Both the position numbers and the translations under genes were made by a program. Shown here piece after piece: positions 1 to 3,380 of a stretch of 33,167 nt of DNA (its first letter is position 1; each line of letters begins with the position of its first letter). A model generated the notes under the pieces. The model was not told the origin of the DNA and did not search any database. It saw nothing but the letters and a program-made list of their open reading frames with translations. This DNA is from Nitrospira lenta (lineage in GTDB: Bacteria; Nitrospirota; Nitrospiria; Nitrospirales; Nitrospiraceae): positions 1 through 33,167 of the forward strand of contig CAMBDY010000021.1 in the NCBI GenBank assembly GCA_945865525.1. Direction: 5' to 3'.

Positions 1-79
1 ATTCCTTCATGTTCGCATCAAGCACCATCGCACCATCCATTTTGTTCGCCCATCTTTTGTACTCATCTTGCGTCATCAT
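1..79 (-). CDS. Partial small gene of unknown function, cut by window edge
   Basis: Only the first 26 or so codons are visible. The reading frame starts with two consecutive ATG codons (79-77 and 76-74) and reads MMTQDEYKRWANKMDG and onward to the window edge without a stop. The first ATG overlaps the TAA stop of the preceding minus-strand gene by one base, a typical translational-coupling arrangement, so the two genes are probably one operon. I do not recognise the product. The N-terminus is hydrophilic, with no signal peptide and no visible domain. Confidence 0.45.
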   Translation of the reverse strand, partial: MMTQDEYKRWANKMDGAMVLDANMKE

Positions 80-348
80 TATGATTTCTTGCCACGAAAC
101 GAAGACCAAAAGGCATCTGTGGCGACAGGAACATCTTGAGTGTTGCTGAGATTTTGCTGCGCTTTCTCCATCAAACCATTGAGACCAAAACGGGTAAACG
201 CACCTTTGGACAAACCGTATTTTTTAGACAAAATGTTCAGGAGATTATTTTCACTAGGTGTCAAGAGCACCATAAATGAATGGCTTCTGGTTTCATGTTG
301 AGCATTCGGGACATTTGGGACTGCAGGCGCATCTACAATTAAATCCAT
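79..348 (-). CDS. Small ribbon-helix-helix-like putative DNA-binding protein
   Basis: This is an 89-residue protein. I chose the ATG at 348 because AAGGAAG lies just upstream of it on the minus strand; a longer reading from 417 has no such support and adds 23 residues of unlikely composition. The middle of the protein (about residues 27-60) reads LLTPSENNLLNILSKKYGLS followed by KGAFTRFGLNGLME. This resembles the strand-helix-helix pattern of Arc/MetJ or MobC-type proteins: a short beta stretch, a helix with a KYGLS turn, then a second helix. That fold usually binds DNA as a dimer in plasmid partition, mobilisation or antitoxin roles. The assignment is pattern-based and tentative. It is coupled to the truncated gene downstream and lies next to a long non-coding region full of palindromes, which could be its target. 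Base composition is AT-rich compared with the core genes. Confidence 0.5.
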   Translation of the reverse strand: MDLIVDAPAVPNVPNAQHETRSHSFMVLLTPSENNLLNILSKKYGLSKGAFTRFGLNGLMEKAQQNLSNTQDVPVATDAFWSSFRGKKS

Positions 349-465
349 TATTCTTCCTTTATATAAAGATAAATGTTCACCAAACGGATCCTGCTGACGA
401 ACAGCGTGAGTCAGCATGTGCGAAGCACATTGCTATAAGCACTCCAGATTAATTTTTGTACATTT

Positions 466-600
466 CTACATATATGTAGTCAGAGAACGAAAATAGGCAT
501 AACGGGGCATTATAGGGGGAATAGAAGCAGTAGCGTTCTCTGGTGAAGATCATTGTTCGGAATTCTAGAGTGATGCGCTTCGCGCGTGCGCCTTCGGCGC
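466..600. repeat. Cluster of palindromes upstream of the RHH-like gene
   Basis: Three features are visible in this gene-free stretch: a 14-bp perfect palindrome CTACATATATGTAG (466-479), an 8-bp inverted repeat AGAGAACG (482-489) with CGTTCTCT (534-541), and a tight hairpin GCGCC-TTC-GGCGC (588-600). An open frame on the minus strand here (449-661) has no domain and no convincing ribosome binding site, so I read the stretch as non-coding. The AT-rich 14-mer could be an operator for the neighbouring small DNA-binding protein; that is inference. Confidence 0.5.
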
Positions 601-654
601 TGCTTCTGTTGTTTATAAATTGCAGGATGCTTGAGATATAACTGATTTGTTTTA

Positions 655-1090
655 GACGCAACTTTGCTATCTGAAGAAAGTTGCGTCATTAGACGCTGTG
701 ATGACTGCTCAACCTCTCATGAGAGGACCTGTTTCTCAGGTTGCGAGGAGCGATCGGCATTGCTCCTTTTACGAGGACTTCTCTCTACGCAGTAGAGACG
801 ATGCGAACGATCTACGACTCATCACGGCAGTAGAACATTCTGTGGGGCGCAAGTTGTTCAGCGTTGCCCACGCATGACCAATTGGTCTTTCGCACTTGTC
901 GAGGTTTCGCAACGGATCTACCATCCGTCACAGGTTCTTCGTCAGCCTCCTCGTGCTTAATGAACCTTTCCTCTTATGTGAAACAGCACACGCACAGTTA
1001 GGTTTGTGATAGAGACCCTCCCATTGTTCAATGCCACGCTGTTCACGCGCACATTGACACTTCAGACACTGCATTGAGCACTCGTTGCTC
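655..1090. other. Hairpin-dense non-coding region, possible structured RNA or recombination/transfer site
   Basis: No convincing gene lies here, yet perfect inverted repeats follow one another. They are: GACGCAACTTT (655-665) with AAAGTTGCGTC (677-687); GCGTC (683-687) with GACGC (692-696); palindrome CCTCTCATGAGAGG (713-726); ACCTG (727-731) with CAGGT (737-741); AGGAGC (746-751) with GCTCCT (762-767), followed by a short T run; TCTCTAC (782-788) with GTAGAGA (792-798); GTGGG (842-846) with CCCAC (867-871); palindrome GACCAATTGGTC (876-887); ACGGAT (912-917) with ATCCGT (923-928); TCAATG (1028-1033) with CATTGA (1052-1057); and GAGCA (1076-1080) with TGCTC (1086-1090). This density in about 435 bases is far from what ordinary spacer DNA shows. 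Candidate roles are a large structured RNA, a recombinase target, or a transfer/replication origin. The strand of any transcript is unknown, and I could not match it to a known RNA family. Confidence 0.55.
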
Positions 1091-1128
1091 TATATCTATT
1101 TAGTCATCGCGAATTACCAAAAGTGGGT

Positions 1129-1182
1129 GTTTTGATCGTTTTTGAAACTTTATTTTCACCGTTCTGATTACCCTCTCAAAAC
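1129..1182. repeat. Imperfect inverted repeat upstream of the recombinase
   Basis: GTTTTGA (1129-1135) is the exact reverse complement of TCAAAAC (1176-1182). The pairing extends outward, GGTG on the left against CACC on the right, with a three-base bulge. The spacer is 40 bases and AT-rich. The size and the position just upstream of a serine recombinase would fit a subsite of a resolution or inversion region, but no second copy was found in the window, so the role is inference only. Confidence 0.35.
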
Positions 1183-1228
1183 GACACCTAAAAACTCGTG
1201 CTTTATCAATAGGTTATGGATAGCAATA

Positions 1229-1257
1229 TTGTTGTATCAAAAACATATGTTTATGAT
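1229..1257 (+). promoter_or_regulatory. Candidate promoter of the serine recombinase with palindromic operator
   Basis: TTGTTG (1229-1234) and TATGAT (1252-1257) are separated by 17 bases, a reasonable sigma-70-type promoter ending about 50 bases before the chosen start codon. The spacer contains a perfect 12-bp palindrome AAACATATGTTT (1241-1252), and CAATATTG (1224-1231) overlaps the -35. Such dyads across a promoter are typical of autoregulation, possibly by the recombinase itself; this is inferred. Confidence 0.4.
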
Positions 1258-1307
1258 AAACTGTTCTCATGAGCAAAAGTGATGATTTGAGTGAAAAGGA
1301 GGACACG

Positions 1308-1943
1308 ATGAAAAAGCGAGTTTGTATCTACGCTAGGGTCAGCACTCATGATGGACGGCAGAATTGCGACAATCAGTTGCGTGAATTGCGTATCGTCGCT
1401 GAACGAAATGACTGGGAAGTCGTGGAAGAATACATTGAAACGGTTAGTGGCGCGAAAGGGAGAGCGCAGCGCCCAATACTAGATCAAATGATGAACGCAG
1501 CAGTACGCAAAGAGTTTGAGTTGATTATGAGTTGGTCTGTAGATCGTTTGGGCAGAAGCATGAAGGACTTACTGGACTTATTGGACACACTCAAAACAAA
1601 AAAAGTGGATCTCTATCTTCATCTTCAAAATCTGGACACGCAGACTGCTGCTGGGAAAATGCTGTTTTCAATGTGTGGCGTGTTTGCGGAGTTTGAACGC
1701 AGTTTGATTCAGGAGCGTGTCAAAGCAGGGTTAGCACGAGCAAGAGCGGCAGGGAAGCAGTTTGGACGACCGCGAATCGCAGCAGAGAAAGAGAAAGCGA
1801 TTCAAACAGCACTGACGCAAGGCGCAACAGCGAGATCCATTGCTTTCAATCAAAAAGTTGGCGTCGCAACTGTCTATCGCGTGTTCAAGGAAATGAAGAA
1901 AACGCTGAAAGCGCAGAAAAAAAAGAAAAATAGAAAGGTATGA
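1308..1943 (+). CDS. Small serine recombinase (resolvase/invertase family)
   Basis: This 211-residue protein matches the small serine recombinase family, which performs site-specific inversion or resolution through a 5'-phosphoserine link. The N-terminal catalytic domain (about 1-140) starts with CIYARVST, giving Ser12 as the nucleophile. It continues with SWSVDRLGRSMKDLL and then AEFERSLIQERVKAGL, the start of the long E-helix. RARAAGKQFGRPR links to a C-terminal helix-turn-helix (about 170-205, ATARSIAFNQKVGVATVYRV). The ATG at 1308 is chosen because AAGGAGG lies 5-6 bases upstream; an ATG at 1269 would add 13 residues that families of this type do not need. The tail is very lysine-rich, encoded by a poly-A stretch. 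Length fits Tn3-resolvase or Hin/Pin-type enzymes; I cannot tell resolvase from invertase. AT-rich composition and the adjacent palindrome-rich DNA indicate a mobile or plasmid-derived segment. Confidence 0.9.
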   Translation: MKKRVCIYARVSTHDGRQNCDNQLRELRIVAERNDWEVVEEYIETVSGAKGRAQRPILDQMMNAAVRKEFELIMSWSVDRLGRSMKDLLDLLDTLKTKKVDLYLHLQNLDTQTAAGKMLFSMCGVFAEFERSLIQERVKAGLARARAAGKQFGRPRIAAEKEKAIQTALTQGATARSIAFNQKVGVATVYRVFKEMKKTLKAQKKKKNRKV

Positions 1944-2053
1944 GCAGGCAGACTTCTCGGGTCCTCTATTCTTTTGACAGTCTGTGGTATTTGGCAGATA
2001 CTTTTCGCGTGGGAGTGGCGAAAAAGGAAGTAACAATGACTGGAGGTGTGACG

Positions 2054-2263
2054 ATGAAACTACTTCTCCTTCTTGTGGTTCTTCTGTTCGTAACCCCCGT
2101 CCAGGCGCAGGGTCCCGCAGGGTCCTCTGGGTCCGTCAAGAAATCAACAACGGGTATCTGCCACGCACCCGGAACAACCTACTACAATAAAACCAAAAAC
2201 TTTACTCCCTTCAAAACACTGGATGACTGTCTCAAGTCTGGCGGGAGACTACCGAAGCGATAG
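2054..2263 (+). CDS. Small secreted protein with two-cysteine C-terminal motif
   Basis: This 69-residue product has an obvious signal peptide: MKLLLLLVVLLFVTPVQA, then likely cleavage before QG. The mature part is short: a Gly/Ser-rich linker, then GICHAPGTTYY, a Lys/Thr/Phe-containing stretch, and DDCLKSGGRLPKR at the end. The two cysteines probably form a disulfide in the periplasm. The pattern CH-x-PGT-x-YY ... CL-x-x-GGRLP is one I associate loosely with tails on secreted nuclease-like proteins in mobile regions; that memory is not firm and no function is claimed. GGAGGTGTGACG precedes the ATG at 2054, so I prefer it to the upstream ATG codons at 1940 (overlapping the recombinase stop) and 2036. 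It may be co-transcribed with the recombinase. Confidence 0.6.
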   Translation: MKLLLLLVVLLFVTPVQAQGPAGSSGSVKKSTTGICHAPGTTYYNKTKNFTPFKTLDDCLKSGGRLPKR

Positions 2264-2355
2264 TTCGTCACGCATGAGAAAGAAGTCCACAAGAAGATTG
2301 CTGTGGCGTATCTCCGTTACGCCGTAAAAAGAAATTTTAAATAAGGATGTCACCG

Positions 2356-2757
2356 ATGCGATTCTTGCTGACAACACTGCTGCTACTCATAGGCACACTT
2401 GGAGTCGTGGCGTGTAACCCTGCGGAGATGACTGAGGAGCAACTGCGTGTGGCGACACCTGAGGAACTGAATAAGCAGTGTCAGAAGGGCAATGCGCCGG
2501 CGTGTGTTTTTCTTGGGATAATGTACGACAACGGCGAAGGCGTCACGCAGGATGACTTCAAAGCAGCAGAACTTTATCGGCAAGCGTGTGATGGGAAGAA
2601 TGCGTTGGGATGTATCAATCTTGGGTACCTGTATTCCGTGGGAAAAGGTGTCACACAAGATTACTTCAAGGCAGCGGAACTCTGGCGGCAAGCGTGTGAC
2701 GGGAAAGATGCGATGGGATGTAAGAACTACGCACGACTGAAGACTGGAAAGAAGTAA
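2356..2757 (+). CDS. Cysteine-rich Sel1-repeat lipoprotein
   Basis: This 133-residue protein starts with a lipoprotein signal (MRFLLTTLLLLIGTLGVVAC, lipobox VVAC, Cys20). Two 36-residue Sel1 repeats follow: the LGIMYDNGEGVTQDDFKAAE unit and the LGYLYSVGKGVTQDYFKAAE unit, each followed by a QACDGK turn. Each repeat carries a cysteine pair near its ends, the pattern of the Helicobacter cysteine-rich (Hcp) proteins, where disulfides lock each helix pair. Sel1 repeats normally mediate protein-protein contacts, so this is probably an envelope adaptor rather than an enzyme. An ATG at 2347 is possible, but the AAGG motif sits correctly only for 2356. It is a close paralogue of the next gene. Confidence 0.8.
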   Translation: MRFLLTTLLLLIGTLGVVACNPAEMTEEQLRVATPEELNKQCQKGNAPACVFLGIMYDNGEGVTQDDFKAAELYRQACDGKNALGCINLGYLYSVGKGVTQDYFKAAELWRQACDGKDAMGCKNYARLKTGKK

Positions 2758-2762
2758 TTACG

Positions 2763-3245
2763 ATGCGAAAAGTGTTGACAGCACTACTGTTACTCATAGG
2801 CACACTTGGAGTCGTGGACATCGCGTCTGCGGAGACACTTGAGGAACTGACTAAGCAGTGTCAGCAAGGTGATGCGGAGGCATGCTTCAATCTCGGAGGA
2901 AGGTATGACGAGGGAAAAGGTGTCACGCAGGATTACTTCAAAGCAGTAGAACTCTATCGGAAAGCCTGTGATAGGAAGGTTGCAAAGGGATGTTTCGATC
3001 TTGGAGTGATGTATCGCAACGGCAAAGGCGTCACACAGGATTACTTCAAGGCAGTGGAACTCTATCGGAAAGCGTGTGACGGGAAGAGTGCGTTGGGCTG
3101 TAACAATCTTGGAGTGATGTATGAGTTTGGCAAAGGGGTACGACAGTCGAGTGAAGACGCACTCACATTCTATGGCAAGGCGTGTTACCTGAAAGAAGAA
3201 CTTGGATGTACGAACTACGCAAAACTGAAGACTGGGAAGAGGTAA
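2763..3245 (+). CDS. Cysteine-rich Sel1-repeat periplasmic protein
   Basis: This 160-residue paralogue of the preceding gene begins only five bases after its stop. The signal peptide (MRKVLTALLLLIGTLGVVDI, then ASA before the mature Glu24) is of the non-lipidated type: where the neighbour has VVAC, this has VVDIASA. Three Sel1 repeats follow (about 38-150), with cysteine pairs at the repeat junctions (LGGRYDEGKGVTQDYFKAVE, LGVMYRNGKGVTQDYFKAVE, and a more divergent LGVMYEFGKGVRQSSEDALT). The two genes share a 27-bp identical run inside the signal-peptide coding region and similar C-terminal ends (YAKLKTGKR against YARLKTGKK), so they arose by a fairly recent tandem duplication. One copy appears lipid-anchored and the other soluble in the periplasm. 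Confidence 0.8.
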   Translation: MRKVLTALLLLIGTLGVVDIASAETLEELTKQCQQGDAEACFNLGGRYDEGKGVTQDYFKAVELYRKACDRKVAKGCFDLGVMYRNGKGVTQDYFKAVELYRKACDGKSALGCNNLGVMYEFGKGVRQSSEDALTFYGKACYLKEELGCTNYAKLKTGKR

Positions 3246-3330
3246 AACGCAAGGGGTGCACTGATGGCGCAATCACCAGCGCAGTGGAACATAAGCGTTG
3301 CTAGCCTAAAACGTGTGACCGGTCCGCACG

Positions 3331-3364
3331 GGCGTCGCCTCGCGGAGCGCGCGAGGGGGACGCC
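3331..3364. terminator. Long GC-rich hairpin between convergent genes
   Basis: GGCGTC (3331-3336) pairs with GACGCC (3359-3364), and CCTCGCG (3338-3344) pairs with CGCGAGG (3350-3356), giving a 13-bp stem with a small internal bulge and a five-base loop. It lies between the 3' ends of the second Sel1 gene and msrB. There is no T-tract on either strand, so it may act as a bidirectional transcription block or mRNA 3' stabiliser rather than a classical intrinsic terminator. It also sits where AT-rich accessory DNA gives way to GC-rich core. Confidence 0.5.
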
Positions 3365-3380
3365 GCCGTGCATCGACGGT

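Follow-up and report, generated by a model that had tools for sequence, protein, structure and literature searches.

The contig analysed here carries, close to its left end, a hairpin-rich non-coding block that lies beside a serine recombinase gene in an island of low GC content. The window, meaning the whole stretch of DNA under analysis, is the complete contig C21 (33,167 bases) of a 1.8 Mb genome assembled in 39 contigs, the nearest relatives of which suggest a Nitrospira-type bacterium. The block is a real and unusual feature, and its reading as a structured RNA is plausible. To the more specific proposal, that positions 640-1111 are an orphan structured RNA gene of a mobile low-GC island, probably on the + strand, we would give slightly less than an even chance. 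That the block stands for an undescribed class of large structured RNA, located beside the resolvase module of a mobile island, is a good deal more doubtful. The coordinates of the features are collected in Table 1.

Table 1. Features at the left end of the window.
Feature	Position	Strand	Remarks
Low-GC island	1-3300		Continues past the contig start; right-hand boundary within 3245-3380
Small divergent gene, 112 aa	79-417	-	Also given as 82-417; family unrecognised
Hairpin-rich non-coding block	640-1111	+ favoured	Candidate structured RNA of ~450-470 nt
5' hairpin	655-687		11-bp perfect stem 655-665/677-687; 11-nt loop with 2 more pairs; pair probability 0.98 on +
Left arm of closing helix of main domain	697-706	+	10-bp long-range helix, partner 1102-1111; pair probability 0.95
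14-bp perfect palindrome, CCTCTCATGAGAGG	713-726		The + fold instead pairs 718-726 with 970-978
Stem-loop	745-768	+	10 pairs, CGGC loop; predicted fold
Multibranched subdomain	770-955	+	Closed by 770-777/948-955; closing-helix pair probability 0.87
12-bp perfect palindrome, GACCAATTGGTC	876-887		
10-bp helix	1025-1080	+	1025-1034/1071-1080; predicted fold
Right arm of closing helix of main domain	1102-1111	+	Partner 697-706; predicted fold
Putative accessory element, GTTCTGATTACCCT	1161-1174	+	73 bp before the core; 9/14 consensus letters; moderate support
Palindromic core (crossover-type) site, GTATCAAAAACATATGTTTATGATAA	1234-1259		1 mismatch to Hin-like pattern
Serine recombinase (resolvase/invertase family)	1308-1943	+	Alternative ORF start 1269

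Hairpin Content of the Block

The original prediction described positions 655-1090 as a stretch packed with at least ten perfect inverted repeats, and this description holds. If perfect inverted repeats are counted with a minimum arm of 5 bp and a maximum loop of 15, the stretch contains 15 of them, or 10 when overlaps are removed, which together provide 63 arm bp. The corresponding values in 300 dinucleotide shuffles are 6.0 ± 2.5, 4.7 ± 1.7 and 25.6 ± 9.1. A comparison with shuffled sequence of the same dinucleotide content had been proposed as a check on the prediction; now that it has been run, the hairpin count stands above the shuffled sequence, with the counts matched by 2 of the 300 shuffles and the arm bp by none. 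Among 3,819 segments of 436 bp each from the same genome (~425 kb sampled), the stretch takes second place for arm bp. The segment in first place lies within a long open frame; of the other high-ranking segments that were checked, most fall wholly or mostly in open frames.

The 11-bp stem and both perfect palindromes (14 bp and 12 bp) are present as originally reported, while the remark that the hairpins leave almost no unpaired DNA was an overstatement. The extent needed a similar adjustment: the hairpins are indeed found at 655-1090, but the structured part covers approximately 640-1111 and does not end at 1090. No motif is common to the hairpins, which share no more sequence with each other than shuffled hairpins do, and the direct repeats in the block are only short and weak. 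A short way to the left of the block, at 565-612, there are two short G+C-rich hairpins in tandem (GCGCTTCGCGC and GCGCCTTCGGCGC), the second of which is followed by a T-rich tail on the + strand.

Predicted Fold and Choice of Strand

On the + strand, the region 640-1112 is predicted to form a 5' hairpin (655-687) followed by a single large nested domain, in which the helices of Table 1 are accompanied by further nested helices at 718-726/970-978 and 802-807/889-894. The fold energy of 655-1090 corresponds to a z-score of -2.68 on the + strand, where 0 of 100 shuffles are as stable, and of -2.03 on the - strand, where 2 of 100 are. Random windows from the same genome (n = 70) have a mean z-score of -0.11 ± 1.25, and ~6% of them reach -2.5. 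Thus, the density of hairpins is exceptional, as judged by its rank among shuffles and within the genome, whereas the z-scores make the overall stability moderately unusual.

The two strands differ little apart from the long-range helices. The main domain, 697-1111, folds better on the + strand (z -2.81 versus -1.39 on the - strand), while the shorter region 650-970 folds better on the - strand (z -3.07 versus -2.43). It is from this balance that we infer the + strand as the favoured one.

Coding Content, Known RNA Families and Relatives

The claim that the stretch is gene-free is borne out, since there are no ORFs of at least 60 aa within 662-1268 and six-frame scans of the block produced no Pfam matches. 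A decayed gene can be set aside, given that nothing in the block matches any Pfam family or the products of genes that neighbour relatives of the recombinase. ARAGORN returned no match to a tRNA or tmRNA gene, which removes that candidate as well. A scan of 4227 Rfam families gave no match at the gathering score, nor when relaxed to E up to 5, and the sole score reported was that of snoZ256, at 17.1 bits versus a gathering score of 50.

At the DNA level, the block has no match among plasmids (PLSDB) and phages (INPHARED), and no homologue among the 100 nearest genomes, 175 from the family, where weak matches of 19-44 bases are chance-like, or 396 from the phylum. No relative of the block was found beside the relatives of the recombinase either. 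In a partial search of IMG/VR, five exact 16-mer scans led to isolated word matches without flanking similarity. A covariance model of the stretch 768-957 (R1), which is of little power as it is made from a single sequence, was run against the recombinase loci, the IMG/VR matches and the family and phylum genomes, and gave a convincing score for the window alone. The genome-wide contig collection was scanned with the recombinase protein only.

The Serine Recombinase and Its Putative Site

The gene noted beside the block in the original prediction does encode a serine recombinase of the resolvase/invertase group (PF00239, 1.1e-42), and the protein also matches PHROG 125 (DNA invertase). Its start is likely the ATG at 1308, behind the ribosome-binding sequence AAGGAGG at 1296-1302. 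The relatives of this protein come from Proteobacteria and from the same bacterial phylum, most of them at 44-60% identity.

A putative recombination site lies between the block and the gene. Its core, at 1234-1259, is clear and fits a Hin-like pattern with one mismatch, for which the chance expectation is none. The accessory element at 1161-1174 is weaker; it has the usual spacing from the core, though the automatic search favoured a different placement. Upstream of the relatives' recombinase genes there is a shared palindromic core together with an element like GTACCGAAAACCCC. In 28 of 47 relative loci the spacing that scores best between core and accessory element falls at 72-74 bp, and in 18 of these it is exactly 73. 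This compact layout, consisting of a ~26-bp palindromic core and an accessory element, is seen, for example, in loci L005, L006, L014, L017, L030, L033 and L053. By inspection, an open frame on the divergent side resembles a Tn3-type transposase in L003, L005 and L006, and in L003 and L005 the divergent transposase-like gene begins directly across the recombination site. A structured block upstream of the relatives of the recombinase gave no consistent signal, one scan having covered 35 loci.

The putative recombination site is thus situated between the block and the gene, and the recombinase can be accounted for without the block. Like res sites of the Tn3-family type, the block is located upstream of a resolvase-family gene, and a res-like site is indeed present at 1161-1259. 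However, the hairpins lie outside this site, and the relatives that have the same layout lack a related block. The hairpins were therefore rejected as the recombinase's own site, and 655-1090 was rejected as a res site in general, the palindromic core and the fixed-spacing accessory element being found at 1161-1259 instead. The original suggestion of a DNA-processing site is, to this extent, weakened as far as the recombinase is concerned, and the hairpins, unlike iterons or operator arrays, have no common motif.

A Candidate Structured RNA

In the preferred reading, the block would give rise to a transcript of ~450 nt on the + strand, read toward the recombinase gene. The transcript would form the 5' hairpin followed by one large domain, closed by 697-706/1102-1111 and containing the nested multibranched stems, and would end just ahead of the resolvase's putative recombination site. 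The folded RNA may then serve the island as a scaffold or regulator, rather than acting via a protein.

Several observations argue for this. Firstly, the excess of hairpins over shuffles and the rank of 2 in 3,819 are combined with the lack of a coding signal. Secondly, the + strand z-score of -2.7 is accompanied by long-range helices with pair probabilities of 0.95 and 0.87. Thirdly, the hairpins do not share sequence, as is the case in a folded RNA, and the recombinase has its site elsewhere. Other observations weaken the RNA reading: there is no homologue in the collections searched and no Rfam match, and no sigma-70-type promoter is present directly upstream of 640 on the + strand. In fold energy the stretch belongs to roughly the top 6% of random windows of the same genome, which is not extreme, and the strands are similar outside the long-range helices, with 650-970 folding better on the - strand. 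The structured RNA that was put forward in the original prediction gains, in sum, mild support from the nested fold on the + strand, while the Rfam check proposed for it gave no match.

GOLLD and ROOL often occur in phage or mobile DNA. The block resembles the large ornate bacterial ncRNAs (GOLLD, ROOL, OLE; PMC12286853) in being gene-free, in extending over hundreds of bases and in having a multibranched predicted fold, but it is shorter (~450 nt), has no Rfam match and is known here from a single sequence. Bacteria have few large structured RNAs, mostly of unknown role, so that an addition to them with a link to a mobile recombination module would be of use as a lead. As a single-sequence case, the block is at present something to look out for in new metagenomes, and not a result.

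Alternative Readings

The structure could instead belong to the - strand. In that case, a structured 5' leader would start near the resolvase site, run for ~700 nt through the hairpins and control the small gene at 417-79. The sole sigma-70-like match in 400-1400 is on the - strand, at 1179-1152, although one such match is fewer than the 1.8 expected in shuffles. Similarly, the - strand is more stable than the majority of shuffles (z about -2, and -3.07 for 650-970), but over 697-1111 it barely beats them (z -1.39). The divergent transposase-like gene opposite the recombination site in L003 and L005 is consistent with a leader, whereas for the small gene itself neither a family nor a good orthologue was recognised. 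It was originally taken to be RHH-like, a label that we do not retain, as it has no Pfam or NCBIfam match and its model is of low confidence. Overall, a leader for this gene appears rather unlikely.

The block might also be non-functional, either foreign DNA in decay or hairpins that arose by chance where the island is under little constraint. It occurs once, is not conserved in the 175 family or 396 phylum genomes, and has moderate fold z-scores. Because the stretch was picked from 33 kb for its hairpins, the comparison is a selected one, and a sizeable share must be left for chance or decay. Against this, the arm length is reached by 0 of 300 shuffles and by 2 of 3,819 genome windows, one of which is the block itself, and there is no match to decayed proteins of recombinase neighbourhoods or to any Pfam family. 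We consider a non-functional origin to be a minority possibility, on the unlikely side.

The Island and Its Genome

The GC content is ~37-53% in the first 3.3 kb of the window and ~57-64% in the rest. The nearest relative with the region (G016; 79% DNA identity over 2.8 kb) has kept the chromosomal genes from 3368 onward; nothing of window positions 1-3367 was found there, and another chromosomal gene is the left neighbour. The GC content and the absence from this relative place the hairpin block in a lineage-specific, foreign-looking island that the contig end interrupts. In the 3.3 kb of the island that can be seen, no Rep or relaxase gene was recognised.

A setting of this kind raises the question of a DNA-level site of the island, such as a replication origin, a transfer origin or a single-strand initiation site, whose hairpins would be extruded or bound as DNA. 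The two strands are symmetrical in their perfect palindromes and short stems, and the island appears to be mobile, with its low GC content, its serine recombinase and its absence from the nearest relative. Such a site is nevertheless improbable, since the recombinase's own site is elsewhere, no motif is repeated among the hairpins, no integron attC pair or plasmid or phage DNA match is present, and the part of the island before the contig end offers no recognised Rep or relaxase gene. Integron attC arrays likewise have hairpins in series within mobile DNA that is poor in genes, but the block has one RYYYAAC (707) and one GTTRRRY (997), 290 bp apart, and no pair at usable spacing; an iteron or operator array was rejected for want of a repeated motif.

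Downstream of the recombinase gene, positions 1940-2263 encode a small protein that probably has a signal peptide and whose last 43 residues match PHROG 37565 (E 1.3e-17, unknown function). These are followed at 2347-3245 by Sel1-repeat genes, for which stretches of 81-92% identical DNA exist elsewhere in the genome (contigs C1, C2, C4, C19 and C20); at least one copy, that on C4, sits in a low-GC patch. The low-GC end of another contig, C8 (1-11300, L132), carries genes that, judged by their translations, resemble those for ribonucleotide reductase, ThyX and primase, and is perhaps a phage or prophage within the assembly.
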